DNA from: Paraburkholderia sp. FT54
GTDB lineage: Bacteria; Pseudomonadota; Gammaproteobacteria; Burkholderiales; Burkholderiaceae
Reading direction: 5' to 3'
DNA length: 64,000 bases
Assembly (NCBI RefSeq): GCF_031585635.1
Contig: NZ_CP134197.1
Location: 1-64,000 of the forward strand
A model generated the notes under the pieces. The model saw nothing but the letters and a program-made list of their open reading frames with translations. It made no database searches and was not told where the DNA came from. The stretch's first letter is position 1; each line of letters begins with the position of its first letter. Position numbers and translations under genes: made by a program. Shown here in pieces: positions 6,501 through 34,268 of this stretch.

Positions 6501-7442
6501 ATGGATAACCTGCAGGTAGTACCTCACTCCACGACCGACACTCTGGCGAGAATCCGGGCGATTTCAGACTCTCTGCCTGATGCGCAGCAACAGGTGGGAA
6601 AAGCGATACTCGCCGAGCCGGAGTGGTCGGTGCGAGCCAATGTCGCGGAGATTGCGCACCGCGCTGGCGTCAGCGCGCCCACTGTCGTCCGATTCTGCCG
6701 CGCCGTGGGCTTCGAAGGATTGAGCGACTTCAAGCTGCAGCTTGCGCAGAGCCTGGCGGTAGGCACACCGTACCTTCATCGAGCGGTCAACGCCAAGGAT
6801 GACGTAGCGAGCCTCGTCCACAAAATCCTTTACGGAGCCGCCGCCGTGCTGACCAGTCTCGAGAGCCAGCTCGATGCCGACACGATCAGTCACGCCATCG
6901 AGAAGCTCGCCGCGGCTAACCGGATCGACTGTTATAGCGTGGGCAGCGTGTCGACTTTTCTCGCCAACGACGCGCAGTCGCGCTTCGCGCGCTTGGGTCT
7001 CACATCGAACGCTTATTTCGATCCGCATATGCAGGTCATCTCGGCAGCAGCGCTGTCGCCTCGGGATGTCGTGCTCGCGATCTCACACGTCGGACGTATG
7101 CCGACCCTGCTGGAGGCGGTAGCACTCGCGCGCGAACAGGGCGCGACGGTGATCGGCATTACCCGGCCCGACACACCGCTTGCGAAGCAGTGCAGCATTC
7201 CAATCGGAATGATCGTGCCCGAGGACGCCGCTGCGCGCGTGGGCACGGAGGCGTACCTCGCCGGACAGATACTCATCGAGGTCCTGATGGTCGGGGTTGG
7301 CTTGCGACTCGGCCCATCGGCGCTTGAGCGGCTCAAGCGAGTCCGGTCCGTGCTGCGCGAGAGGGGCGTCGATAGCGACGTCCACCCGGCGTTGCAGCGC
7401 GCTTGGTCGGAAGCGGAGCGCGACGCGCTCGGTGACGACTAG
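6501..7442 (+). CDS. MurR/RpiR family transcriptional regulator
   Basis: A 313-aa two-domain regulator. Residues about 10-85 form the RpiR helix-turn-helix domain, with VAEIAHRAGVSAPTVVRFCRA as the recognition motif and GFEGLSDFKLQL after it. Residues about 120-270 form a SIS sugar-isomerase-like domain (YSVGSVSTFLANDAQSRFARLG, then AISHVGRMPTLLEAV) that binds a phosphosugar-type effector in characterised members. It lies upstream of and in line with the D-aminoacylase/ABC operon. Sites at 6410, 7560 and 7778 share a palindrome and frame both promoters, so it very probably controls itself and that operon. Confidence 0.9.
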   Translation: MDNLQVVPHSTTDTLARIRAISDSLPDAQQQVGKAILAEPEWSVRANVAEIAHRAGVSAPTVVRFCRAVGFEGLSDFKLQLAQSLAVGTPYLHRAVNAKDDVASLVHKILYGAAAVLTSLESQLDADTISHAIEKLAAANRIDCYSVGSVSTFLANDAQSRFARLGLTSNAYFDPHMQVISAAALSPRDVVLAISHVGRMPTLLEAVALAREQGATVIGITRPDTPLAKQCSIPIGMIVPEDAAARVGTEAYLAGQILIEVLMVGVGLRLGPSALERLKRVRSVLRERGVDSDVHPALQRAWSEAERDALGDD

Positions 7443-7524
7443 ATGCATCTACCCGGCGGAATGGCCCTGGCGCAGCGTCCGCCGTGATTGGGCAGCGCCC
7501 ACCCAAAATTTACTTTTTTTCTTT

Positions 7525-7553
7525 TTGACATCAAAGGACCAAAGCATTACGCT
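7525..7553 (+). promoter_or_regulatory. promoter of the D-aminoacylase/ABC operon
   Basis: TTGACA (7525-7530), 17-bp spacer, TACGCT (7548-7553). The -35 is perfect. The operator at 7560-7574 starts where transcription should begin, the position expected for steric repression. Confidence 0.6.
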
Positions 7554-7559
7554 TGGTTC

Positions 7560-7574
7560 TGAAATTTAGTTACA
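7560..7574 (+). promoter_or_regulatory. candidate RpiR operator at the +1 region
   Basis: TGAAATTTAGTTACA, overlapping the predicted start site of the promoter at 7525-7553. The following bases TCAAG also resemble those at 7793 (TCTTA). Confidence 0.7.
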
Positions 7575-7777
7575 TCAAGAGGTATCGCAATACAGGGACG
7601 GTGATGGCTGACCGATACGGCAATCTTCCATTTCAATAGGACTACAAATTGATTTTATGCCGTAAACGGCGACGTTGCAGTGCGTTTCGCGCTGAGTCCA
7701 TTGAAACGCCGGGCGGCCGGCGGAACGGATGGGGTTCTTTTCTGGCAGCGCATAGCGACGATACCGAGCCTTGAGAA

Positions 7778-7792
7778 TGAAATTTACTTACA
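7778..7792 (+). promoter_or_regulatory. candidate downstream RpiR operator
   Basis: TGAAATTTACTTACA, 218 bp after the copy at 7560 and 41 bp before the deacylase ATG. A pair of sites at this distance could act by looping or by a transcription roadblock. Confidence 0.65.
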
Positions 7793-7832
7793 TCTTATCC
7801 ACAGCAACATTTGCCTTGGCGAAATTGGACCT

Positions 7833-9296
7833 ATGAACGGAACACCGGCAGCGCACGGCTCCACGCATTGGCTGTTTCAGGGCGGCTTCGTGATCGATGG
7901 TAGTGGGGCATCCCGTTTTCGCGCCGACGTGCGCGTCGAAAACGGCCGCATCAGTGAAATCGGCACGGACCTCGGGCCGCGCGGGGCGGCATGCATCGAC
8001 GCGTCCGGGCGCATCGTCGCGCCCGGCTTTATCGACGTGCACACGCACGACGACGAATCCGTCCTGTCGGCGCCGCAGATGCTGTCCAAGATAAGCCAGG
8101 GCGTGACGACCGTCGTGGTGGGCAATTGCGGGATCAGTCTCGCGCCGCTCGTGCATTCGAACGTGCCGCCGCCGCTGACTTTGCTGGGCGGCTCCGGCAA
8201 GCACGTCTTTCCAACGATGCAGGCCTACGCGCAAGCCGTCGACGCTGCACGCCCGGCGGTGAATGTCGCGGCCCTCGTTGGCCACTCGACATTGCGCGTC
8301 GCGACCATGGACGACCCCTACCGCGCCGCGACGCGCGCGGAGCAGGCGAGGATGGCGGAGTTGATGCGCGAAGCGATGGCCGCCGGTGCGACCGGGCTCA
8401 GCACGGGCCTTTTCTACGACACGAACGCGGCGGCGGACGTTGCCGAGGTCACCATGCTGGCGCGTATCGCCGCCGAAGCCGGAGGCGTTTATACCGCGCA
8501 CATCCGCAACGAAGCCGAGGACGTGATCGCCTCACTGGACGAAGCGTTCACGGCCGCGCGAGATGCCGCTCTGCCCGTGGTGATCTCACATCACAAGTGC
8601 GCGGGGCCGACCAACTGGGGACGCTCCGTCGAAACACTCGCACATATCGACGCCGCGCGGCGCACGCAGCCGATCGGCCTCGATGCGTACCCCTACATCG
8701 CCGGCTCGACGATTCTGCGCCCGGACCTGGTGGACGGCATCATCGAAATCATGGTGACGTGGTCGGAGCCTTACCCTGAAATGAGCGGGCGCTCGCTCGC
8801 CGACATCGCGCAGGAGTGGCAATGCAGCCAGAAAGAAGCTTGCGAGCGTCTACAGCCGGGCGGCGCGAGTTACTTCCAGATGCGTGAGGACGACGTGCGC
8901 CGCGTCCTGCAATACGAGGCGACGATGATCGGCTCAGACGGCCTGCCGCACGATCGTCATCCGCACCCACGCCTGTGGGGGACCTTTCCGCGCGTGCTAG
9001 GCCATTACGCTCGTGAACTGGGTTTGTTCCCGCTGGAGGAAGCCGTGCGCCGCATGACCGGCCTGTCCGCACGCCGTTTCAATCTGCTGGATCGCGGCGA
9101 GATCGCGGTCGGCAAGCACGCGGACCTCGTCGTGTTCGATCCGGATTTCGTGATTGACCGCGCCACCTATGCGCAGCCGACCACGCCGGCCGCCGGCATC
9201 GACAGTGTCATGGTGAGCGGCTCGATGACTTACCACGCACAGGGTCCAACCGGCATTCGGGCCGGCAGGTTCCTGCGTCTCGGGAACCGCTCATGA
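7833..9296 (+). CDS. N-acyl-D-amino-acid deacylase (D-aminoacylase family amidohydrolase)
   Basis: A 487-aa amidohydrolase-superfamily enzyme that should remove the acyl group from N-acyl-D-amino acids in the cytoplasm. Motifs in order: GFIDVHTHDD (metal His at about 70 and 72), VGNCGISLAP, TAHIRNEAEDV, VVISHHKCAG, and MIGSDGLPHDRHPHPRLWGTFPR near the end, the signature of D-aminoacylase rather than of dihydropyrimidinases. The frame is open from 7680, but ATG at 7833 matches the family N-terminus and lies after the operators. The stop overlaps the next start by 4 bp (ATGA), so it is translationally coupled to the ABC permease. Acyl and amino-acid specificity cannot be read. Confidence 0.9.
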   Translation: MNGTPAAHGSTHWLFQGGFVIDGSGASRFRADVRVENGRISEIGTDLGPRGAACIDASGRIVAPGFIDVHTHDDESVLSAPQMLSKISQGVTTVVVGNCGISLAPLVHSNVPPPLTLLGGSGKHVFPTMQAYAQAVDAARPAVNVAALVGHSTLRVATMDDPYRAATRAEQARMAELMREAMAAGATGLSTGLFYDTNAAADVAEVTMLARIAAEAGGVYTAHIRNEAEDVIASLDEAFTAARDAALPVVISHHKCAGPTNWGRSVETLAHIDAARRTQPIGLDAYPYIAGSTILRPDLVDGIIEIMVTWSEPYPEMSGRSLADIAQEWQCSQKEACERLQPGGASYFQMREDDVRRVLQYEATMIGSDGLPHDRHPHPRLWGTFPRVLGHYARELGLFPLEEAVRRMTGLSARRFNLLDRGEIAVGKHADLVVFDPDFVIDRATYAQPTTPAAGIDSVMVSGSMTYHAQGPTGIRAGRFLRLGNRS

Positions 9297-10231
9297 GACC
9301 ATCACTGTCGTTATCGTCCGGCAACCAGCGCGTGCGCAGCAAACGTATCGGCTACGATCGCCGCGCATTCGCCTGGCTGCTCAACACACCGGCGCTCCTC
9401 GCGATCGTCCTGCTTTCGGCGTTTCCGATAGCCTACTCGGCGTGGATCAGCCTGCACCGCTACAACCTCCAGCGTCCGCGGGCTTTCAAGTTCGTCGGCC
9501 TGTCGAACTACAGCGACATACTGCAGTCGTCCGAGTTCTGGGCCGCCCTGCGGATCACCGCCGTGTACACGGTGCTGGTGGTCCTGTTGGTGGTGGTGTT
9601 CGGCATCCTGATCGCGCTGCTGCTGAACCGCGAGTTTCCCGGCCGCGCGCTGGTGCGCACGCTGGTCCTGCTACCTTGGGCTATTCCGCCCGTGGTGAAC
9701 GGCCTGATGTGGCAATGGATCTATGACGCCAAGGTGGGCGCGCTCAACGGCCTGCTGGTCAGCCTTGGCTTGATCGACCAGTATCGCGGCTGGCTGTCCA
9801 CTCCCACCTCGGCCTTGCTCGCGCTCGTGTTCTCGGAAGTCTGGAGTCTGTTGCCGCTCGCCGTGATCCTGCTGCTCTCGGCGCTGCAGCGCATTCCCGC
9901 GGAGCTGTACGAGGCGGCAGGCATGGACGGCGCCAGCAGGTTCCAGCTGTTCCGCTACATCACGTTGCCGTGGCTTTCGCAGTCGCTGCTCGTCGTATTG
10001 ATCCTGCAGACGATGTCCGCGCTCCGGGCCTTCGACATCATTTATGTGCTGACAGCGGGCGGCCCCGGCACGGCCACTACCACGCTCACCTGGCAGACCT
10101 ACCTCACCACTTTCGACAACCTCGATTTCGGCCACGGCAATGCCTACGCCTGGCTGGTAAGCCTGATTACGCTGGGGCTCGCCCTGGCCTATTTCCGAGT
10201 GCTGTACGGACGTGGGGACTTTGAAGCATGA
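9293..10231 (+). CDS. CUT1 ABC transporter permease (MalF/UgpA-like)
   Basis: A 312-aa inner-membrane protein with six predicted membrane segments and the binding-protein-dependent transport motif EAAGMDGASRFQLFRYITLP that contacts the ATPase. LLNTPALLAIVLLSAFPIAYSAW is the first helix. Four-base ATGA overlaps couple it to the deacylase before it and to the second permease after it. It pairs with the MalG-like permease, the Tat-type binding protein and the MalK-like ATPase. CUT1 systems usually carry oligosaccharides or glycerol-phosphate, but the operon partners point to an acylated amino compound or amino-sugar conjugate. Confidence 0.92.
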   Translation: MRPSLSLSSGNQRVRSKRIGYDRRAFAWLLNTPALLAIVLLSAFPIAYSAWISLHRYNLQRPRAFKFVGLSNYSDILQSSEFWAALRITAVYTVLVVLLVVVFGILIALLLNREFPGRALVRTLVLLPWAIPPVVNGLMWQWIYDAKVGALNGLLVSLGLIDQYRGWLSTPTSALLALVFSEVWSLLPLAVILLLSALQRIPAELYEAAGMDGASRFQLFRYITLPWLSQSLLVVLILQTMSALRAFDIIYVLTAGGPGTATTTLTWQTYLTTFDNLDFGHGNAYAWLVSLITLGLALAYFRVLYGRGDFEA

Positions 10232-11127
10232 GCGCTCTTCTCAACTCGCTGGTCACACCTGCCGGTCGCCAATCGCGGCGCACGGTGTTCCTGATCGTGG
10301 CGGGGATTGCCGTCGCGGTCTACATCCTCGCGCCGTTCTGCTGGCTGCTGCTGACGAGTTTCATGCATGAACGTGACGCCCTGACAGTGCCGACGCAGTG
10401 GATTCCCCGCCATCCGACGCTCGAGCACTACAAGATGTTCTTTCATCCGTCGGGAACGAGCGCGATCGTCGGCGGCCGTGCTGCCGAGGAAATGCTTCCG
10501 GGCATGCTGAACTCGCTGATCGCCGCGCTCGGTACGGCCGCAGTCAACCTGGTGCTCGGCACGCTCGCGGGCTACAGCCTCGCTCGCCTGCGTTTTCGTG
10601 GGCAAGGCGCGCTGCTCGGTGTTTATCTCGGCTCGCGCATGGTCCCGGGTATCGCGCTGATCGTGCCGCTTTATCTGACGCTCAAGAATCTCGGTATGCT
10701 GGACCACCTGTCCGCGCTGGTCATCACCTATGTGACCTTCACGCTGCCGTTCACGATCTGGCTGCTGAAGAACTACTTTCAGACTATCCCGCGCTCGCTC
10801 GAAGAAGCCGCGCTGATGGACGGATGCAGCTGGTTTCAGATGCTCGTCAAGGTGCTGCTGCCCGTCGCCATGCCCGGACTCGTTTCTTCGGCCATGTTTG
10901 CGTTCATGACCGCGTGGAACGACTACCTGTTCGCCGTGATCCTGACGAGCACGACGGCGTCGAAAACCTTGCCGGTAGTCGTCGCGGGCTTCGCCACCGA
11001 CGTGACGACCCAACGGACGCTGATGGCGACGGGCGGCGTCCTGGCCATCATCCCGCCTCTGGCGCTGGCATTTCTGTTCCAGCGGCTGATCGTCCAGGGA
11101 CTGACAAGCGGTGCGGTGAAGGACTGA
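10228..11127 (+). CDS. CUT1 ABC transporter permease (MalG/UgpE-like)
   Basis: A 299-aa second permease with six predicted membrane helices and the EAA motif EEAALMDGCSWFQMLVKVLLP. The first helix follows a short basic N-terminus (RQSRRTVF). A 4-bp overlap joins it to the preceding permease. A periplasmic loop between the first two helices is slightly long compared with MalG. Confidence 0.92.
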   Translation: MSALLNSLVTPAGRQSRRTVFLIVAGIAVAVYILAPFCWLLLTSFMHERDALTVPTQWIPRHPTLEHYKMFFHPSGTSAIVGGRAAEEMLPGMLNSLIAALGTAAVNLVLGTLAGYSLARLRFRGQGALLGVYLGSRMVPGIALIVPLYLTLKNLGMLDHLSALVITYVTFTLPFTIWLLKNYFQTIPRSLEEAALMDGCSWFQMLVKVLLPVAMPGLVSSAMFAFMTAWNDYLFAVILTSTTASKTLPVVVAGFATDVTTQRTLMATGGVLAIIPPLALAFLFQRLIVQGLTSGAVKD

Positions 11128-25182: not shown

Positions 25183-26466
25183 TTATCCTTGTGCTCCGAC
25201 AAAACGCGCGCGCACCGGCTTCAACACGAACATCGCCAGCACGGCGGTGCTCAGATCGAGCGCGATCGCGCATCCGAACACCGGCGACCAGCTGCCGGTC
25301 TGCTGATGCAGCAGCGCGGCCAGCGGGCCGCCGAAGATCGAGCCAATCCCGAACGAGATGTAAAGCCAGCCATAGTTCGCGGTGGCAAAGCGAGTACCGA
25401 ACGTGTCGGTCAGGGTCGAAGGGAACAGCGAAAAAATCTCACCCCAGCCGAAGAACACCACGCCGGACAGCAGCACGAACAGGACCGCGTTGTCGCGCGT
25501 CAGCAGCCAGAGCGCCATTGCCACACCTTCCAGCGCGAATGCAAAACACATCGTGTTTTCGCGCCCCAGGCGATCCGATATCCAGCCGAACAACGGACGG
25601 GTCAAACCGTTCGTGAAACGGTCGATCGTCAGTGCCAGCGGCAACGCGGCGAGCCCGAAGACCAGTACCTTGCTGACGCCGAAGTCGGTGGCGAAGCTTG
25701 CCATCTGCGAAGTGACCATGAGACCCGAAGTGGACATCATCGTCATCATCAAGAACATCAGCCAGAACAGCGGTGTCTTGAGCATCTCGGACGGGCGGAA
25801 GTCGCGCGTCGAGACCGCCGTGCGAGATACGGCCGAGCCGAAACTGGCTGTCGCGGGCGGTTCTCGCAGGCCCTGCGAGGCGAGCAGGCCGACCGCCGCG
25901 AAGATGATCCCATACAGCCACAGCGTGGATTCGACGCCGTGCGTGGCCAGCGATGCGGAGATCGGAAAGGTCGTGACAATGGCGCCCATGCCGTAGCCCG
26001 CGGCCGCTACACCGGCGGCGAAACCGCGTCGATCGGGAAACCAGCGAACGACGAAACCCACCACGCCGACATACACGATGCCGGTGCCGAGACCGCCGAC
26101 GCAGCCATACGTGAGGTACAGCATCGACGTACTGTGCGCATAAGAAGCCAGCACCCAGCTCACGCCAGCCAGCAACGTACCGATCGAGATCAGCAGGCGC
26201 GGCCCGAAACGATCAATCAGCGCACCCTGGAACGGTGAGAAGAACGCCTGCAGCAGTACCAGCAGTGAGAAAGTGACTTGCAGTTCCGGCAGAGCGATGC
26301 CGAGCTTGGCCATGAGCGGCTTCGTCATCAGAGTCCATACGTATTGGGGACTCGAGATCGTCATCATGCAAACGAGGCCGAGTCCGAGCTGGATCCAGCG
26401 GGTATGCGCGGCTGTTTGCGCGACGGGCGAGGCGACGCTTTTCAGTGATTGCGTGCGGGTGTTCAA
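25183..26466 (-). CDS. OxlT-like MFS transporter (oxalate/formate antiporter family)
   Basis: A 427-aa MFS protein of the oxalate/formate antiporter type, twelve predicted helices. TLMTKPLMAKLGIALPELQVTFSL is the characteristic first periplasmic loop and second helix, and FFGWGEIFSLFPSTLTDTFG the late motif. The TTG at 26466 has GGAG at 7-bp spacing; the frame runs on to a TTG at 26499. It is paralogous to the MFS at 32237-33523. Likely exchanges or imports a small carboxylate or amino-acid derivative for the neighbouring hydrolases. Confidence 0.88.
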   Translation of the reverse strand: MNTRTQSLKSVASPVAQTAAHTRWIQLGLGLVCMMTISSPQYVWTLMTKPLMAKLGIALPELQVTFSLLVLLQAFFSPFQGALIDRFGPRLLISIGTLLAGVSWVLASYAHSTSMLYLTYGCVGGLGTGIVYVGVVGFVVRWFPDRRGFAAGVAAAGYGMGAIVTTFPISASLATHGVESTLWLYGIIFAAVGLLASQGLREPPATASFGSAVSRTAVSTRDFRPSEMLKTPLFWLMFLMMTMMSTSGLMVTSQMASFATDFGVSKVLVFGLAALPLALTIDRFTNGLTRPLFGWISDRLGRENTMCFAFALEGVAMALWLLTRDNAVLFVLLSGVVFFGWGEIFSLFPSTLTDTFGTRFATANYGWLYISFGIGSIFGGPLAALLHQQTGSWSPVFGCAIALDLSTAVLAMFVLKPVRARFVGAQG

Positions 26467-26602
26467 TAGATTTCTCCGTTCGGATTGAAGTATCGGCAAA
26501 TGGGCGGACGTGCGCCGTCCTTGCCGTCGGCGCGAACGCTTGCGGCTCGTCGATTCAAAAGGGCGCGGGCGGCGCGGGCCGCCCGCCGTTTAGCAGGCGT
26601 GC

Positions 26603-28222
26603 CTACCAGCCAGCCGCGGCGCCATCGCTGCGCGGGTCATAGCCTGCTTCCAGAGATCCGTTGCCGTGCCGCACGATCGCACCGGCGTGGCCCATCGCTT
26701 CGTCGTATGGCCGCATCTGCTCGACGTCATGGCCGAGACGACGCAACGCATTGAATGTGTCGACGGGAAACCGCGCCTCCAGCTTGAGTGACTCATTGGT
26801 TTGCCCCCAGGTCCGGCCCAGCAGCCAGCGAGGCGCATCGATGGCGGCTTGCGGATTCCAGCCGAAGTGCGCGATCCGCGAGAACACGGCGCTTTGCGAT
26901 TGCGGCTGGCCGTCGCCGCCCATGTTTCCGTACACCATCGTGCGTCCATCGGCGAAGCGCGCGAGCGCCGGGTTCAGCGTGTGAAATGGCCGTCGTCCCG
27001 GCGTAAGCGGATTGCGCGCAGAGGGATCGAGCGAGAAGCTGCAGCCGCGGTTTTGCCAGTTGATACCTGAATCCGGAAGCACGAGGCCGCTGCCGAACTC
27101 GTGGTAGATGCTCTGGATAAAGCTGACGGCCACGCCATCGGCGTCGATCACGCCGAGCCACACTGTGTCGGCTGGTCCGAGACCGCGTCCCCAGGGCGCT
27201 GCCGTGGACATCGAAATCTGGTCGGCCATCGCGTCGAGCACGTGCGGTGCAAGCAGCGCTTGCGGATCGACGTCCATGTGGTCCGGGTCGGTAATGTGCT
27301 TGTCGCGTATGGCGAAGGCGAGCTTGGTCGCCTCCACGCACGCATGGACGTACTCCGGCCCGAGCGGATCCATATCGTCGCGCAGGACACGGTCGAGCAC
27401 ACCCAGAATCTGCAGCGATACAAGCCCTTGCGTGGGCGGCGGCATGTTGTAGATCGTACCGAGCGAATGCGTGAGTGCCAGCGGCGTGCGCAGCCGTGCG
27501 CGATGCTGTTCGAGATCCTCCAGCGACAGTGGACTCTCGAGCGCACGCAGGTCGGCCGCGATGCTGCGCGCTAGGTCGCCATGGTAGAAGTCGTCGAGAC
27601 CCGCGTGCGCGAGACGCTCGAGCGTCGCGGCGAGGCGGGGCTGCCTGAAGCGCTCGCCGACGGCCGGCACGCCCAGCGGGTTGTCGCTCGTCAGAAACGT
27701 CTCGGCGAACCCCGCGACTGATTCGAGCTCGTGCCGCTTGAGTTCGACGCACTGGGACTGGCTGCGCGTGACCGGAATGCCATCTCGCGCGTAGGCGATG
27801 GCATCTTCCAGCAGGCGCGCAACCGGAAGCTTGCCGCCGAGTGTGTCGGTCGACCAGCGATGCGCCAGCGACCAGCCCGATACTGTTCCGGCTACCGTAT
27901 TGGCCGCGAGCGGGCCGCGAAACGGGATGGATTGCAGGCCGCGTGCGCGGTAGGCGTCGATTGTCGCCGCCGATGCCGCCGCTCCGCACGCCTCGATGCC
28001 GATGGGCTCTTCGCCCGGCCGCGAAATCAACCAGAAGCCGTCGCCGCCGATGCTGTTCATATGCGGATACACCGCTGCGATGGTCGCCGCGGCGGCAATC
28101 ATCGCTTCGACGGCATTGCCTCCGTCGCGCAGGATCGCGAGCGCGCTTTGCGACGCCAGCGCATGGGGTGTGACTGCCATCCCGCGGATGCCCCGCACAG
28201 GGTTTAAAAATTCTGCTGACAT
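26603..28222 (-). CDS. gamma-glutamyltransferase family protein
   Basis: A 539-aa Ntn-hydrolase proenzyme. N-terminal half: ASQSALAILRDGGNAVEAMIAAA, HMNSIGGDGFWLI, GTVSGW. The autoprocessing nucleophile is the Thr of ADTVWLGVIDADGVAVS at about residue 355, after which the small subunit begins. GSGLVLPDSGINWQNRG and YGNMGGDGQPQ complete the active site. No signal peptide is evident, unlike periplasmic Ggt of enteric bacteria, so the enzyme appears cytoplasmic. Usual reactions are hydrolysis of gamma-glutamyl or related acyl amides (cephalosporin-acylase-like members also exist). GAGGA precedes ATG. Confidence 0.9.
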   Translation of the reverse strand: MSAEFLNPVRGIRGMAVTPHALASQSALAILRDGGNAVEAMIAAAATIAAVYPHMNSIGGDGFWLISRPGEEPIGIEACGAAASAATIDAYRARGLQSIPFRGPLAANTVAGTVSGWSLAHRWSTDTLGGKLPVARLLEDAIAYARDGIPVTRSQSQCVELKRHELESVAGFAETFLTSDNPLGVPAVGERFRQPRLAATLERLAHAGLDDFYHGDLARSIAADLRALESPLSLEDLEQHRARLRTPLALTHSLGTIYNMPPPTQGLVSLQILGVLDRVLRDDMDPLGPEYVHACVEATKLAFAIRDKHITDPDHMDVDPQALLAPHVLDAMADQISMSTAAPWGRGLGPADTVWLGVIDADGVAVSFIQSIYHEFGSGLVLPDSGINWQNRGCSFSLDPSARNPLTPGRRPFHTLNPALARFADGRTMVYGNMGGDGQPQSQSAVFSRIAHFGWNPQAAIDAPRWLLGRTWGQTNESLKLEARFPVDTFNALRRLGHDVEQMRPYDEAMGHAGAIVRHGNGSLEAGYDPRSDGAAAGW

Positions 28223-28315: not shown

Positions 28316-29683
28316 TCAGCGAGAAGCAACCGCCATGTTCCAGCCGGTTCTACCTTCAACCCATTCCGCAAGCGATAGCAACGCGGCATCGTGCTGACTT
28401 GCACCGACCAGTTGCACGCCAAGCGGCAGTCCCTCCGGACCGAAGCCGACCGGTAACGTCACCGCCGGCACGCCGAGGAAGGTCCAGGGCGTGCAGAACG
28501 CCGCATCGCCCGTATAGTCGAGCCCGCGAGGGGCCTCGCCCGATGCCGGCGCGACCAGCAGCGCGTCCAGTCCCGCCACTTCGGTGAGCCAGCGGTCGAA
28601 GCGCAGCGCCATCTTTATCTGCAATGCCTTGGCTTTCGCGTACTCGGTCGCGGGCAATGCGCGGCCTTCTTCGACGAGAGCCGTGAGCGGTGCGCTGACA
28701 AGAGCTGGCGAACGGTCCACCAGTTCGCCGTGTGTCAATGCTGCTTCAACCGCGAGCAGGATCGAAGCATGCCGCGCAGCGTCGGCCACTTCGGCGGGCA
28801 GGTCGGCAGCGACGATTTCCGCGCCGTCAGCACGCAAACGTAAGGCAAGTTGATTCAGCACATGCTGCTGCGCTTTGTCGATCGGTCCACCAATCTGCTC
28901 GCGCAACACGCCGATGCGTGGCGGCCGGTTTGCAGCATCGCCAGCGACTTTCCCGTGGTGACTGTGATGCGACGTGTGGGGATCGTCCGCGTCGCTACCC
29001 GCGAGAATGGATAGCGCGTGAACTGCGTCAGCAACATTGGTGGTGAAAACGCCAAGGTGATCGAGCGACCCTGACAACGGCAACACGCCGGTCCGCGCAA
29101 TCGTTCCGTAACTCGGCTTTACCCCGACCACGCCGCAATACGCGGCGGGACGGATGACGGAGCCGAACGTCTGCGTGCCGAGCGCGAGTGGCACGATGCC
29201 TGCCGCAACGGCGGCAGCGGAGCCGCTCGACGAGCCGCCTGGCGTGTGATCGCTATTCCACGGGTTGGTCGTGGCGCCGGGCTGACGCCAGGCGAACTCG
29301 GTGGTGACCGTTTTGCCGAGTATCGTGGCGCCGGCTTCGCGCAACCGGGCAACCACCCATGCGTCCTTGTCGGGCCTGCGCCCTTCGTAGGCCGGCGATC
29401 CATACGCGGTGGGCATATCAGCCGTGTCGATCAGGTCTTTTATGCCGACAGGGACGCCCGCGAGCGGCGCGTCGCGATCGGCACGATTGACGATCGGCGA
29501 CGTCGGCAGATGGATGAACGCTTGCAACTCCGGCTGCAGCCGTTGCGCGGCGTCGAACGCGTGTTGCACGGTCTGCTCGACGGTGCGCGTTCCCGCGCGG
29601 ATCGCGTCACGGATTTCGCGGATACTGGGAGAGGGAGACGAATGGGTCATTTCGCTGCTTCGCAACGCTACTTGTACTGGCAT
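28316..29683 (-). CDS. amidase (amidase signature family)
   Basis: A 455-aa amidase-signature hydrolase. The catalytic Lys is in VGIKDLIDTADMPT, the cis-Ser in GGSSSGSAAAVAAG and the nucleophile Ser in QTFGSVIRPAAYCGV, completing the Ser-cisSer-Lys triad. ATG at 29683 has GAGGA at good spacing; ATG at 29650 (MTHSSPSPS) would also give a full domain. Ends AEWVEGRTGWN. Similar to AtzF/GatA-like amidases that free ammonia or amines from linear amides. A copy of the MarR-type composite promoter lies upstream at 29835-29890 and points at this gene. Confidence 0.9.
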   Translation of the reverse strand: MPVQVALRSSEMTHSSPSPSIREIRDAIRAGTRTVEQTVQHAFDAAQRLQPELQAFIHLPTSPIVNRADRDAPLAGVPVGIKDLIDTADMPTAYGSPAYEGRRPDKDAWVVARLREAGATILGKTVTTEFAWRQPGATTNPWNSDHTPGGSSSGSAAAVAAGIVPLALGTQTFGSVIRPAAYCGVVGVKPSYGTIARTGVLPLSGSLDHLGVFTTNVADAVHALSILAGSDADDPHTSHHSHHGKVAGDAANRPPRIGVLREQIGGPIDKAQQHVLNQLALRLRADGAEIVAADLPAEVADAARHASILLAVEAALTHGELVDRSPALVSAPLTALVEEGRALPATEYAKAKALQIKMALRFDRWLTEVAGLDALLVAPASGEAPRGLDYTGDAAFCTPWTFLGVPAVTLPVGFGPEGLPLGVQLVGASQHDAALLSLAEWVEGRTGWNMAVASR

Positions 29684-29834
29684 GCTGGTCCTCAGTGCCG
29701 AACCTGAATCACATTGCGTTTCGCTTACGTGTTCACTTCGCGTATTGTCAGTACACGGCTGGCTGAGGCTTGTGAAACGCATGTCCTGGAGGGCCATTCA
29801 GTTGTCGGCTTTGCCGGTTGTCGGCGAAATATAG

Positions 29835-29890
29835 ATGCAAAGTGCAACAATTGAAATGTCCACGTTGATTTAGTTTGCACAAAACGTGCC
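29835..29890 (-). promoter_or_regulatory. MarR-regulon composite element, copy 1 (amidase)
   Basis: On the minus strand GGCACGTTTTGTGCA (29890-29876) is followed by CAATTGTTGCACTTTGCAT (29853-29835). The same two blocks occur at 30162-30214, 32002-32059 and 33702-33753. The first block is a near-perfect palindrome of GGCACG-nnn-CGTGCC; the second has TTGCAnnTTGCA repeats. Confidence 0.65.
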
Positions 29891-30161
29891 ATGAAGCGAA
29901 AACACAATGTACATGTAAGAATCGCCTACTTTCAGGCGGCAGTGGGCGCCCTGCATGTTCAGGAATTGTGCAGATGCGCGCAAGGACGGTGCATCGGGCA
30001 CGGCAAAATTGATTGCGCACCGTCTCTGGGCGAAACGCAAACGTGCGGCGCCGAAAAGCCGCTGCGAGGGTGCGCTCGATTCAGCGCTTGGCCAGTTCGA
30101 TCTGGCCGCGCGCTCATGTTAGAACGTGACCTGCCCATACGCATTGGATTTACCGCATAAT
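29891..30161. other. divergent intergenic stretch
   Basis: Between the amidase promoter element and the element in front of the MetX-like gene. Nothing coding recognised. Confidence 0.5.
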
Positions 30162-30214
30162 GGCACGCTTCGTGCCTATAAGCATGTGAACTGCAATTGT
30201 TGCAAGTTGCAATT
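30162..30214 (+). promoter_or_regulatory. MarR-regulon composite element, copy 2 (MetX-like gene)
   Basis: GGCACGCTTCGTGCC (30162-30176) is a perfect 6-3-6 palindrome. TGCAATTGTTGCAAGTTGCAATT (30192-30214; longest uninterrupted piece TTGCAAGTTGCAA) follows 30 bp later start to start. It lies about 160 bp upstream of the MetX-like start codon. Confidence 0.7.
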
Positions 30215-30374
30215 AATACGGCACCGTGAAGTCGGAGATCAGCCTGTCGCAGGCACATCTCGGCACTTCCGCCAGGATGCAATCGACGCACGGGGCTGAG
30301 TCGCGCGTCGATACCTTCTGTCTGACTTTTTCAGTTATCCGCTCATCACATTTCACCAAGAGGGATCCCGACCC

Positions 30375-31388
30375 ATGCAGGACTATTTTGTATTCAATGC
30401 CGGAAACGTGGTGTTGCAATCTGGTATCACGTTCAGAGATGCCAAGCTCGCCTATCAAACCTACGGAAAGTTGAACGCAGAAAAATCGAATGCCATTCTG
30501 TACATGACGTCATTTTCCGCGCATCACTATGACATCGAGTGGATGGTCGGTCCGGGCAAGGCGCTAGACACCGACAAGTACTTTGTCGTGATTCCGAACC
30601 TGTTCGGCAATGGACTGTCGTCCTCGCCCAGCAACGCAATCGAGCCCTTTAGCGGAAGCCGCTGGCCGAATTTTACGATCGCTGACAACGTCGCGATTCA
30701 ACATCGGCTCCTGACGCAAGAACTCGGCATCCACGTATTGCAGTTGGCGTGCGGATGGTCGATGGGCGGCTTGCAGGCGTATCAATGGGCGGCAATGTAT
30801 CCGGAGATGGTCAGGCGCCTCGTCGTGCTCTGCGGCGCGGCAAAAACCTCGCCGCACAATCAGGTGTTCATCGAGGGTGTGCGTGCGACCCTGACGACGG
30901 ATCCCGCTTTTCAAAACGGCACATTCGTCCAGCGTCCCGAGCGCGGTCTGCGGGCCATGGGCCGCAACTACGCCGCCATGGCGATGTCGCAGACGTTTTA
31001 TCGTGACGAGGTGTGGCGGCAGGCCGGGTTTTCCTCGCTCGAAGATTTTCTCGTGATGTCGTGGGAAGCGAATTTCCTCAAGCGCGATGGCAACAATCTG
31101 CTGGCTCACCTGTGGACGTGGCAGCATGCGAACATCGCGGCCAACTCCAAATATAACGGCGATTTTCACGCGGCGTTGAAAGCAATTACGGCAAAGGCGC
31201 TGATCATGCCTAGCGAAACCGATCTGTATTTTCAGGTGGAAGACAATCGTCTCGAAGTCGAGCAAATGCAAAACGCCAGGCTCCTTCCCATTTCGTCGAT
31301 ATGGGGCCATCGCGCCGGGTTGCCGACAGCCAATCTGGACGATGCCGCGTTTATTTCCGCTGCAATTACCGGGCTTCTTGAGGACTAA
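30375..31388 (+). CDS. alpha/beta hydrolase, homoserine O-acetyltransferase (MetX)-like
   Basis: A 337-aa MetX-superfamily protein. [17 protein letters not shown] and the long insertion before [14 protein letters not shown] are typical, [15 protein letters not shown] has the nucleophile Ser (G-W-S-M-G), and [15 protein letters not shown] supplies the late His (WGHRAG). True MetX genes cluster with methionine genes and have a conserved cap; here neighbours are an amidase and an OxlT-like carrier, so an ester/amide hydrolase or acyltransferase role in this catabolic regulon is more likely. GAGGGA precedes ATG. Confidence 0.85.
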
Positions 31389-32001
31389 CGTGCTGGACAT
31401 GCTGCTGCGGCGTCTCGTGTTTCTCGTGCAGTCTTTCATCGGCATTGCAGACCCCTGCGCCGATGCTGTCGAAAAACATTGCGGAAATCGCTGAAGCAGA
31501 TGCGCGTGCGACTGCCCATGTCGGTTGGAACGTCACAGGCGTCCCCGGCATGGCAATCATCCGGCTCAACGAGCCCTGATCCCAGATCGCACGACTCTCT
31601 CCGCATGCATTCGAAGCGGGCCATTTCGCACGCATGGCGTGCTGCCTGATGCAGCAACCGGCGCGGCTCTCAGACCGCTAACGCATCAAGGACGGTTCAC
31701 ACGAACCGGCGGCGTTCTTCATCATCGGTAAGCGTCGGGAACGACATACTGCGCATCGCGGCGAACGGCGTCGGGTGTTTTCGGCGGATTGCATCTTCGC
31801 ATTGGAAACGTTCCTTTGGATCGTCGCAGCCGCACGGGCTCGACGACTGCCAACGTTGGGCCCGGAATCGGTGCAACGGTGATCTCGCCTCGCGCAGTGC
31901 ACCTTTCTCGCGCACCGCGCATGGTTTTTGCGCATGGCCGCGCTTTCATCGCGGTATGAAAAACGCCTGATTTGTCCATGAACAGAGGGTTATTGGGACA
32001 T
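31389..32001. other. gene-free stretch with a possible short remnant
   Basis: A 38-codon frame at 31463-31579 (ATG to TGA) looks coding-like but is too short to classify. The rest shows no supportable gene. It separates the MetX-like gene from the next promoter element. Confidence 0.4.
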
Positions 32002-32059
32002 GGCACACTTCGTGCAAATTGAAAGCACATGTAAATGCAAATTATTGGAAATTGCAACT
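32002..32059 (+). promoter_or_regulatory. MarR-regulon composite element, copy 3
   Basis: GGCACACTTCGTGCA (32002-32016) followed by the second block at 32036-32059, whose core reads TTGGAAATTGCAACT. It precedes the truncated marR copy and the OxlT-like gene. Confidence 0.65.
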
Positions 32060-32079
32060 ATATCGACGTGATGCGGACG

Positions 32080-32215
32080 CACTGACGGATCGTCGAAAGG
32101 TGCCGTTTTCACGGCTGGGTCATCTGAACTTACGTTTCGATGTACTGAGCGCGCTGTCCAGGAGCGTCGCGTCAGGCCTTCGGGCAAGCACGCTGCCTGA
32201 GTCATTTCGTGTCAC
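32080..32215 (+). pseudogene. truncated marR-family gene remnant
   Basis: The frame here encodes VPFSRLGHLNLRFDVLSALSRSVASGLRAS, which matches the N-terminus of the intact MarR protein at 33783 (APYPRLEHLNFRLDVLSELAKGVASGL) almost residue for residue. It then loses similarity exactly where the DNA-binding core should begin and runs into the start of the MFS gene. It is the 5' end of a duplicated marR gene that kept its promoter, with the body lost; the promoter now drives the MFS gene. Confidence 0.75.
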
Positions 32216-32236
32216 TTATTCGTACGGAGTTCAAGC

Positions 32237-33523
32237 ATGAGCACCCAGAATTTCGGCGCCCGCACCCGCGCGCCGCTTGTCCTTTCGCTACACAGCCGCT
32301 GGTGGCAATTATTGTGCGGCCTCGTGTGCGCGATGGTCGCGTCCAATCCCCAATACATCTGGACTTTGCTGACGCGCCCGTTGACCGCCCAGCTCGGTGT
32401 GTCGCTGCCGGGTCTGCAGGTCACTTTTTCCATCCTCATTGTTTGCCAGACGTTTCTGTCGCCGCTCGAGGGCTATCTGATTGAGCGCTTTGGGCCGCGC
32501 TGGTTGCTCTCCGCGGGTGGCGCGATCACGGGACTTAGCTGGGTACTGACGAGCCGCGCGGAATCTCTGCTGTCCGTTTATCTCTGCTATGGCGTTCTCG
32601 GGGGAATCGGCGTTGGCATTGTCGTGGTCGGCACGATCGGGCTGATGGCACGCTGGTTCCCAGACCGTCGCGGTTTTGCAATCGGCGTGGTGATGGCAGG
32701 CTTCGGCATGGGCGCGATGCTCACCACATTTCCGATCACCAATAGTATCGCCCGGTACGGCTATCAGCATACGCTGGTCGTCTATGGTGTGATCCTTGGC
32801 GTGGTCGGCATACTTGCCGCCCTCGGCATGAGGCTGCCGCCTCCCGGCTATATGGCTGACTGGCGGCCGCAGAGAGCCGCCGCGGCCGTACCCGACACGC
32901 GGCCCGGCAATATGCTGCGCACTCCGCTGTTCTGGCTGATGTTTGTGATGATGTCGATGATGGCGACCTCCGGCCTGATGGTGACCTCACAAATGGCAGT
33001 CTTCACGCGAGATTTCGGCATGGCGGGGGTCACCGTGTTCGGTCTCGCCGCGCTGCCGCTTGCGTTGACGATCGATCGCGTGGCGAACGGCGTGACGCGG
33101 CCTATGTTTGGATGGATCTCCGATCTGATCGGCCGCGAGCATACGATGCTGATCGCGTTCGGGATGGAAGCGATAGCGATGACCTTGTGGCTCACGTCGC
33201 GGCACGACCCGTTGTTGTTCGTGCTGCTGTCGGGCGTCGTTTTTCTCGGCTGGGGGGAGATTTTTTCGCTTTTCCCTTCGACGCTTACGGACACGTTTGG
33301 CGGCAAGCATGCGATCGTCAACTACGCATGCCTGTCTTATGCGCAAGGTATCGGTTCGATCCTGGGCGGACCGGTGGCGGCGCTACTCCACGAGCATACG
33401 GGCGGTTGGGACGCGGTGTTCGGCACGGCAATCGCATTGGATAGTTGCACCGCCGTGCTCGCGATCGCCGCACTCAAGCCGATGCGCCGCGCGTGGTTTG
33501 CCCGTGCATCCAGGCGTTCGTAA
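32237..33523 (+). CDS. OxlT-like MFS transporter, second copy
   Basis: A 428-aa carrier of the oxalate/formate antiporter type, paralogous to that at 25183-26466: both share SNPQYIWTL- or SPQYVWTL-like first loops, LQVTFS, and GWGEIFSLFPSTLTDTFG. Twelve predicted helices. GGAG precedes ATG. Lies behind a MarR-type promoter element with a remnant marR in the leader, upstream of the intact marR gene. Confidence 0.9.
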   Translation: MSTQNFGARTRAPLVLSLHSRWWQLLCGLVCAMVASNPQYIWTLLTRPLTAQLGVSLPGLQVTFSILIVCQTFLSPLEGYLIERFGPRWLLSAGGAITGLSWVLTSRAESLLSVYLCYGVLGGIGVGIVVVGTIGLMARWFPDRRGFAIGVVMAGFGMGAMLTTFPITNSIARYGYQHTLVVYGVILGVVGILAALGMRLPPPGYMADWRPQRAAAAVPDTRPGNMLRTPLFWLMFVMMSMMATSGLMVTSQMAVFTRDFGMAGVTVFGLAALPLALTIDRVANGVTRPMFGWISDLIGREHTMLIAFGMEAIAMTLWLTSRHDPLLFVLLSGVVFLGWGEIFSLFPSTLTDTFGGKHAIVNYACLSYAQGIGSILGGPVAALLHEHTGGWDAVFGTAIALDSCTAVLAIAALKPMRRAWFARASRRS

Positions 33524-33701
33524 TGCAATTGGCCACGTCGAGGGCCCGAGGCGGTTGACGAAGGGACGACGGGTTAATCAGCATCCGTCCGCTCGCCGCA
33601 TTGGCATCGTGCGTGCTTGCCCCATTCGTGCGCATTGCGGTACGCTCGTGCCGTTTGGCAAGCCCCCGGCTTGCCTGCACGCATGGGAGTTTCCATACGA
33701 C

Positions 33702-33753
33702 GGTACGTTTTGTGCACGGAACGCGTAAACTTTAAAAATTGCAGTGTGCAACT
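33702..33753 (+). promoter_or_regulatory. MarR-regulon composite element, copy 4 (marR)
   Basis: GGTACGTTTTGTGCA (33702-33716) and TTGCAGTGTGCAACT (33739-33753), the second block being itself an inverted repeat (TTGCA-gtg-TGCAA with offset). About 30 bp before the MarR start codon, a position suited to autoregulation. Confidence 0.65.
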
Positions 33754-33782
33754 GAATCAGAATAGCTGAATGGGAGAACAGC

Positions 33783-34268
33783 ATGTCGAAGGCGCCGTAT
33801 CCAAGACTGGAGCATTTGAACTTCCGCCTCGATGTACTGAGCGAGTTGGCCAAGGGTGTGGCGTCCGGCCTTTACGAAGCCGAATGTGACGTAACCCTGC
33901 GCGACCTGCGCGTACTGCGTTTCATCGATATGCAGCCGGGCATTTCGCTCGGCCCGCTGATTGAGCTGACGTACCTTGAAAAGACGCTGGTTTCGAAGCT
34001 GGTCACCACGCTGGCTAATCGCGGCTTGCTCACACGCTCTACCGGCACGACGGACGCACGTGTCATCAACCTGAACTTGACCAGGAAAGGCAAGGCAATT
34101 GTCCGCAAGTGCGATCGGATCGGCAAGATCTTCGACGAGCAACTTATGTCCGTTTTGTCAGCGGAGGAAAAGCGAGTGCTTTTTGACTGCATCAACAAGC
34201 TGACGGAACACGTGGAGGAGGGCGGTGAATGGACGCTCCCGCCGACACGGCGCAAACGCACTGCCTAA
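33783..34268 (+). CDS. MarR family transcriptional regulator
   Basis: A 161-aa winged-helix regulator. LRDLRVLRFIDMQPGISLGPLIELTYLEKTLVSKLVTTLANRGLLTRST is the DNA-binding core (about residues 38-88), TTDARVINLNLTRKGKAIV the wing, and the C-terminal helix gives the dimer interface. GGGAG lies upstream of ATG. Because its own promoter shares a composite element with those of the amidase, the MetX-like gene and the OxlT-like gene, it is the likely regulator of all four. Confidence 0.9.
   Translation: MSKAPYPRLEHLNFRLDVLSELAKGVASGLYEAECDVTLRDLRVLRFIDMQPGISLGPLIELTYLEKTLVSKLVTTLANRGLLTRSTGTTDARVINLNLTRKGKAIVRKCDRIGKIFDEQLMSVLSAEEKRVLFDCINKLTEHVEEGGEWTLPPTRRKRTA

Follow-up and report, generated by a model that had tools for sequence, protein, structure and literature searches.

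Four promoters of a putative MarR regulon in Paraburkholderia sp. FT54 resemble sigma-54 promoters with a MarR operator below the start

A 64,000-nucleotide stretch of the Paraburkholderia sp. FT54 genome (contig NZ_CP134197.1, positions 1 to 64,000; hereafter the window) carries, between positions 29,835 and 33,753, four copies of a composite promoter element, here called C1 to C4, which lie before genes for an amidase, a MetX-like hydrolase, an OxlT-type antiporter and a MarR-family regulator. An earlier note on this DNA had described each copy as a palindrome followed by a second block, and had suggested that a MarR regulon is served either by two regulators or by one that uses both blocks. 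Our analysis indicates that the four copies are likely to be sigma-54 promoters combined with a MarR operator, whichever activator serves them. Both blocks are very probably promoter elements, as the note supposed, but the first is more plausibly a sigma-54 -24/-12 promoter than the palindrome of a regulator. The promoter kind itself (sigma-54 with NtrC-type enhancers) would be a known one, and the addition would be the MarR operator below the start.

A rescan of the window confirmed the positions of the four composites, all within 4 kb, and the distances from core start to second block (43 base pairs (bp) in C1, 38 in C2, 43 in C3 and 37 in C4) agree with the 37-43 bp given earlier. The assignment of genes was likewise borne out: C1 stands before the amidase gene and heads an amidase-GGT-OxlT1 run (GGT, gamma-glutamyltranspeptidase), C2 precedes the MetX-like gene, C3 heads OxlT2 through a marR remnant, and C4 precedes marR. 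The core sequence that had been put forward, GGCACGnTTnGTGCC, is exact in C2 only, with one mismatch in C1 and two each in C3 and C4. Within the 8,645,533-base genome of this strain (the home genome), the pattern GGNACRNTTNGTGC-N20-34-TTGNANNNTGCA matched four times, all four matches being C1 to C4, and a reversed-pattern control matched nowhere. At up to 3 mismatches, neither part is enriched in the window when taken alone (core, 30 matches vs 35.4 expected; block, 25 vs 21.5). The parts of the four copies are as follows, with the upstream sites scored over 10 palindrome positions.

29876..29891, minus strand: C1 core, predicted sigma-54 -24/-12 promoter TGGCACG-N4-GTGCA; predicted +1 at about 29865, reading into amidase-GGT-OxlT1
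29835..29847, minus strand: C1 putative MarR operator TTGCACTTTGCAT, about +19 to +31
29956..29972, minus strand: C1 upstream site B, NtrC-type 17-mer TGCACAATTCCTGAACA, 8/10
29977..29993, minus strand: C1 upstream site A, NtrC-type 17-mer TGCACCGTCCTTGCGCG, 8/10, 21 bp from site B
30016..30032, minus strand: C1 additional upstream site CGCCCAGAGACGGTGCG, a weaker third one lying 39 bp above site A; its position was set from the homologous DNA of other C1 copies
30161..30176, plus strand: C2 predicted sigma-54 promoter TGGCACGCTTCGTGCC; predicted +1 at about 30187
30200..30212, plus strand: C2 putative MarR operator TTGCAAGTTGCAA, perfect, about +14 to +26
31859..31875, plus strand: C3 third upstream site GGCCCGGAATCGGTGCA, 8/10
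31898..31914, plus strand: C3 upstream site A TGCACCTTTCTCGCGCA, 9/10
31918..31934, plus strand: C3 upstream site B CGCATGGTTTTTGCGCA, 7/10, 20 bp (not 21) from site A
32001..32016, plus strand: C3 predicted sigma-54 promoter TGGCACACTTCGTGCA; predicted +1 at about 32027
32045..32057, plus strand: C3 putative MarR operator TTGGAAATTGCAA, about +19 to +31
33597..33613, plus strand: C4 upstream site A CGCATTGGCATCGTGCG, 7/10
33618..33634, plus strand: C4 upstream site B TGCCCCATTCGTGCGCA, 8/10, 21 bp from site A
33701..33716, plus strand: C4 predicted sigma-54 promoter CGGTACGTTTTGTGCA; predicted +1 at about 33727; TGGTATG... in the five C4 copies of relatives
33739..33751, plus strand: C4 putative MarR operator TTGCAGTGTGCAA, about +13 to +25, suggesting autoregulation

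The reading of the first block rests on an alignment of 23 copies from 8 genomes, chosen by a scan for a degenerate 16-mer plus block in which neither GG nor GC was required; one marR promoter that has lost the GG (locus L054) was kept out of the 23, and a plasmid locus described below was scored later. All 23 copies have GG at -25/-24 and GC at -13/-12 with exactly 10 bp between them, together with A at -22, T at -14 and TT at -18/-17, and a T precedes the GG in 22; variation in the core takes the form of C or T at -23 and -21 and of G or A at -20. The TGGYAYR half fits the sigma-54 consensus TGGCACG-N4-TTGC(W) as it appears in passages of three papers (PMC3224663, PMC4482717, PMC3538637), whereas position -15 departs from it. 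The palindrome fares less well, with arms of five bases intact in 3/23 copies and of six in 2/23, base pairs from the outside inwards matched in 8, 23, 17, 23, 12 and 11 of the 23, and no compensating changes between the arms anywhere in the alignment. In the marR promoters of relatives, which read TGGTATG...TGC, the palindrome is lost and a fair sigma-54 box is kept; their -24 half is the same as that of the validated Xylella glnA promoter, TGGTATG-N4-TTGC, in the passage of PMC3224663 that gives it. RpoN (PF04552) was matched twice in each of the seven genomes searched, a set that does not include the genome of L053, and one of the two matches in Pseudomonas is weak and has an internal stop. 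If the first block is a sigma-54 promoter, MarR is to be expected on the second block only.

With the C of GC set at -12, the TTGCA-N3-TGCAA block of the window's four copies falls between about +13 and +31. Its assignment was examined in ten more distant MarR relatives by scoring GTTGC-N5-GCAAC out of 10 in the DNA upstream of each gene, with a threshold of 9/12 for a GG-GC box. All eight relatives at 44-49% identity have such an inverted repeat at 8/10 or better, two of them perfect (shuffle P from 0.000 to 0.063), and none of the eight has a GG-GC box at 9/12 or better upstream. The inverted repeat at the promoter of marR itself, TTGCAGTGTGCAA, has the same geometry as these eight, and the recognition region of the protein, including an EKTxxSKLV stretch, is conserved. 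We conclude that the block is a probable MarR operator. As in other autoregulated MarR-family genes, marR is here preceded by TTGC-N5-GCAA and probably controls itself and nearby catabolic genes; it differs from them in that the operator lies below a sigma-54 box, whereas the relatives at 44-49% seem, by eye, to carry it on an ordinary promoter. A partial parallel comes from Xylella fastidiosa, where the marR gene XF1354 follows a predicted TGGTACG... sigma-54 box, although the RpoN site there is a prediction and the passages of PMC3224663 concerned contain neither a MarR operator nor a regulon layout. The two-regulator option of the note agrees with what we find, in that two different DNA-binding systems appear to be involved. 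The four copies behave as a single regulon, very probably under the control of MarR; the composite tracks close MarR homologues, and binding would be expected at the second block rather than at both. As a separate observation, the marR promoter in L054 (13305-13450), without the sigma-54 GG and with the operator kept, represents a natural uncoupling of the two blocks.

The two blocks of the note are present, but the composite is larger than was described, a third part having been overlooked: paired activator-type sites of 17 bp, some 80-106 bp above the box. The best 17-mer resembling TGCAC-N7-GTGCA upstream of each copy scores 8 or 9 out of 10 in 22 of the 23 copies and 10 in none; a score of at least 8 is also reached by 5.2% of composition shuffles. 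Two sites exactly 21 bp apart, both at 7/10 or better and anywhere from -170 to -50, occur in 16 copies, against a mean of 0.22 of 23 and a maximum of 2 in 100 dinucleotide shuffles; a pair 39 bp apart occurs in 12. At the common place, with starts at -100 to -106, 17 copies have a pair, namely 14 at 21 bp, with starts at -100 to -105, and three C3 copies at 20 or 22. A single 21-bp element was also considered, and on inspection copy by copy it resolved into separate 17-bp sites. C2 of the window is without an upstream pair of its own, which the five C2 copies of relatives do have; it could use the sites of C1, which lie within the intergenic region common to both promoters, some 170-205 bp upstream of C2, and C1 site A may likewise be usable by the divergent C2.

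The geometry of these sites can be likened to the NtrC box TGCACCAnnnTGGTGCA given in a passage of PMC8743547 and to the home P-II (glnK-like) gene, where TGCACATTTTTTGTGCA stands above a TGGCATG-N4-TTGCT box. More broadly, the four promoters share with sigma-54/NtrC promoters such as those of glnA and glnK-amtB a GG-N10-GC box, paired 17-bp upstream sites and genes compatible with nitrogen uptake and release, and they differ in the MarR operator below the start, a purine at -15 and, in C1-C3, GCGC in the second half of site A. The home genome has an NtrC gene (TIGR01818, 669.5 bits vs a cut-off of 558.6), which is one candidate in a genome with 17 strong matches among 23 to the activator domain PF00158; we give NtrC itself about an even chance of being the activator. 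A scan of seven genomes for the upstream sites gave 12 matches, eight of them in these promoters by coordinates, against six in the reversed control, and did not name the activator. The exact NtrC palindrome TGCACYNNNNNRGTGCA occurs once in the home genome (control 0), above a gene that by eye resembles one for a branched-chain amino acid binding protein, and was found 0 times in genome G399 (control 4) and three times in G398 (control 2).

We then turn to the distribution of the composite. A protein scan with the MetX-like query gave 27 loci, of which 25 (L052-L076, up to 21 kb each) were checked for the proteins of the window, as were L017-L021. A close MarR (79-96% identical) occurs in six of the 25 (L052, L053, L054, L055, L056 and L070), each of which also carries the composite; in the fetched DNA of the remaining 19 there is neither a MarR match at E 1e-8 nor a composite. 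L017, with a MarR at 91%, has the composite twice, once by a relaxed pattern, and L018-L021, with MarR at 42-50% identity, have none; nor do L077 and L078, which were scanned for the composite alone. Among 398 genomes of the family, a looser exact pattern matched in at least two (home and G371), a lower bound as the pattern misses the two composites of G100, whose blocks are weaker. Pseudomonas sp. TH41 (L056) carries two copies. At 6626-11014 of this locus, one composite heads a co-oriented series of genes for an OprD porin, an M20 peptidase, MarR and the MetX-like protein, an arrangement that probably reflects horizontal transfer.

Plasmid pBN1 of Paraburkholderia aromaticivorans, the sole record in a plasmid MarR search, was scored after the model had been built. 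It has one strong composite, whose upstream sites lie at -104 (9/10) and -83 (8/10) and which precedes a run annotated as ABC transporter-amidase-GGT-oxlT. Its marR promoter keeps the operator and has, in place of the usual box, TGGCGCA-N4-TTGCG (TGGCGCAACTGTTGCG), which is sigma-54-like and may be due to chance. An asparaginase gene adjoins marR on this plasmid and diverges from it (L172 14912). Six of the loci devoid of the composite, L071-L076, encode MetX relatives at 51-53% and have a sigma-54-like site, TGGCACGGACATTGC(C/G), 4-6 kb upstream (TGGCGCG...TTGCT in L071), below which lies a different palindrome, CTGACG-TT-CGTCAG, exact in 4/6 and with one mismatch in 2/6. Acetamidase/formamidase and ABC genes are present in those of the six that were scanned. 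In all six loci the sigma-54-like site is a candidate driver of the MetX gene, and in L074 open reading frames on the opposite strand separate the two.

Comparison of copies of the same class between species gives pairwise identities of 84-97% for the core and 81-96% for the operator, vs 62-86% for the linker and 33-60% for the stretch from -260 to -170. Core and operator rank among the best-conserved parts, though not first in every class: the C1 core is surpassed by the upstream sites of that class (90.5 and 87.5%), the C3 operator by one upstream stretch (88%) and by the stretch from -49 to -20 (86%), and in C4 the stretch leading into marR is as conserved as core and operator. Fragments of marR mark some of the other promoters. 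A 5' remnant of marR stands behind C3 in 4/4 genomes (76-83% nucleotide identity over 68-89 nucleotides), and remnants stand behind C2 in 4/6, namely in L052 (75% over 132 nucleotides), in L053, and as 38 nucleotides in L055 and L070; C2 of the window and of L054 has no convincing remnant, and C1 has none. On account of these remnants, C3 and, in relatives, C2 were probably derived from the marR promoter by duplication, the direction of copying being our reading of the pattern, and this suggests that the regulon grew through duplication of the marR promoter.

From the layout, its conservation, its co-occurrence with this MarR and the remnants, all directly visible in the DNA, we infer the following mechanism. 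An NtrC-type enhancer-binding protein, most likely NtrC as the reporter of nitrogen shortage, would bind the paired 17-bp sites and remodel sigma-54 RNA polymerase at the -24/-12 box TGGYAYR-N5-TGC, while a MarR dimer on TTGCA-N3-TGCAA would act as a roadblock to initiation or promoter escape until released by a ligand. The outcome would be AND logic, an activation signal plus an inducer, over a regulon for uptake and for amide or peptide hydrolysis that includes marR itself. C3 and, in relatives, C2 would be copies of the autoregulated marR promoter whose extra marR later decayed, and C1 would have the same layout without a marR remnant.

Sigma-54 promoters are usually described as activator-controlled. 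If the mechanism is correct, a ligand-responsive repressor adds substrate control to such a promoter, expression should be predictable from two inputs, and the marR scars would record how a regulon gains members. We found no description of a MarR operator on a sigma-54 promoter in full-text literature screened by title and start of abstract, a body of work that leaves most subscription journals outside its scope; an RpoN site has been predicted before a MarR gene, according to a passage of PMC3224663. A broader and more tentative possibility, to which we lean somewhat less than to its opposite, is that the sigma-54 promoter serves as a portable platform, an RpoN box with NtrC-type enhancers and an exchangeable repressor operator below the start (that of MarR in this lineage), and that the regulon expanded as the autoregulated marR was copied, each spare marR decaying to leave a ready-made AND-gate promoter for a further gene. 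In line with this, the sister MetX clusters (six loci) pair a more canonical sigma-54 site, of the TGGCACGGACATTGCC type, with CTGACG-TT-CGTCAG in a similar place.

A number of observations weigh against sigma-54 promoters under NtrC-type control. The 23 copies share descent and were chosen by a degenerate consensus, such that their counts are not independent. Position -15, a T in the sigma-54 consensus, is G or A in all of them, and the conservation of YTTY at -19 to -16 goes beyond what sigma-54 needs. Two marR promoters deviate, L054 by the loss of GG and pBN1 by its different sigma-54-like box, both with the operator retained, and two MarR relatives at 36-37% have no convincing operator (P 0.33 and 0.37). 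As for the upstream pairs, of the sixteen at 21 bp the one credited to C3 of the window is off the common place, and the one credited to C4 of L017 coincides with that of the divergent copy next to it; no pair at 20-22 bp is present in C2 of the window, C3 of L053, C4 of L070 or either Pseudomonas copy. None of the 23 listed PF00158 matches of the genome lies within the window, so that no activator gene is linked, a motif scan of the loci examined for linkage matched in L043 and L044 only, and a matrix of the upstream sites run over 39 activator stretches pointed to no activator gene. Several of these points would suit an unlikely alternative in which the palindrome is a dimeric operator, either for a further regulator or as an additional MarR site, and ordinary sigma-70 promoters lie around the TTGCA block. 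C2 matches the 15-mer exactly, the conserved inner bases extend to Y-T-T-Y-R with -15 never T, related MarR genes show by eye an operator inside a -35/-10-like promoter, and TATAT or TATAA, a possible sigma-70 -10, is found below the block in 8/23 copies. However, these eight are 3/4 C1 copies, 4/4 C3 copies and one Pseudomonas copy, with no C2 or C4 copy among them, and a sigma-70 consensus scan of 29700-34000 found one sigma-70-like promoter, at 31696, and none at any copy; a sigma-70 promoter at the block was rejected on these grounds. A dimer operator was likewise rejected as the principal explanation, given five-base arms in just 3/23 copies, an outermost pair matched in 8/23 and the lack of compensation, against GG and GC in 23/23; it would also leave the paired upstream sites unexplained.

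Sigma-54 with a MarR operator could also be combined with an activator other than NtrC, a sub-case of the preferred reading whose probability overlaps with it and which is possible, though less likely than NtrC. The 17 strong PF00158 matches offer ample choice, several of the home activators carry PAS, GAF or PrpR-type sensor domains, and the GCGC in the second half of site A in C1-C3, itself a point against NtrC, would fit another protein. Against this stand the 17-bp TGCAC-N7-GTGCA geometry, which is that of the NtrC box in the cited passage of PMC8743547 and of the home P-II promoter, and a comparison of activators that found none transferred together with the Pseudomonas copy. This comparison drew on the 17 strong home and 23 of 28 Pseudomonas stretches, 34 of the 39 stretches yielding 35 proteins by a motif filter (L124, L127, L139, L148 and L153 gave none). 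When 15 home and 20 Pseudomonas activators were set against each other, the highest identities were those of NorR (70%), a PAS activator (57%) and NtrC (56%). Co-transfer was rejected within this set, since MarR and MetX, which the two genomes share, are 79-87% identical and no activator pair comes up to that level. It is very improbable that the similarity merely reflects promoter duplication with some copies now functionless: the marR remnants behind C3 and C2 speak for such a history, but core and operator are conserved above the linker and the stretch further upstream. That the blocks belong to a dispersed repeat family, or match by chance, hardly deserves credence. The absence of enrichment of single blocks in the window would be compatible with chance, but at the stringency of the scan the home genome has these four composites and none elsewhere, the reversed control gave 0, and the composite is kept before related genes in other species. 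The repeat reading, which the note had named as a possible refutation, was therefore rejected.

The genes of the proposed regulon in the window are these.

25183..26499, minus strand: OxlT1, oxalate/formate antiporter family (TIGR04259, 409.6 bits vs cut-off 335)
26603..28222, minus strand: gamma-glutamyltranspeptidase family protein (PF01019; 311.6 bits, under the NCBIfam GGT cut-off of 357.85)
28316..29650, minus strand: amidase-signature enzyme; a start at 29650 appears likelier than one at 29797
30375..31388, plus strand: MetX-like alpha/beta hydrolase, subfamily NF005757 (PRK07581; 490.9 bits vs cut-off 332)
32092..32180, plus strand: marR remnant, matching marR nucleotides 3-90 (78% nucleotide identity over 89 nucleotides)
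32237..33523, plus strand: OxlT2, oxalate/formate antiporter family (TIGR04259, 403.9 bits vs cut-off 335)
33783..34268, plus strand: marR, proposed repressor (PF12802, 37.5 bits, cut-off 27; PF01047, 30.8, cut-off 24.6)

Both domain models thus place a winged-helix MarR domain in the proposed repressor. By its profile matches, the MetX-like gene product is a member of the NF005757/PRK07581 subfamily rather than MetX proper: it passes the NF005757 cut-off and matches structure 5d6o (named homoserine O-acetyltransferase), and it differs from MetX homoserine acyltransferase in falling under the cut-offs of the MetX models (165.9 vs 331 and 159.1 vs 500 bits). Its closest match is from Paraburkholderia elongata, at 96%. 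Near the composite in L052 and L056 there are also genes for a dipeptide-type ABC transporter, a second amidase, M20 peptidases, a beta-lactamase-family protein and an OprD porin, and the natural reading would be that the regulon serves to take up and break down amides or peptides as a source of nitrogen. The home genome has four further MetX-like paralogues (76-77% and 55%), at 340128, 453522 and 466338 of contig C3 and at 144977 of contig C4 (contig names, distinct from the promoter copies), from all four of which the composite was absent in the home-genome scan. Finally, a coding-like stretch at 31460-31580 of the window, seen also upstream of C3 in L052, is by eye perhaps the decayed end of a gene.

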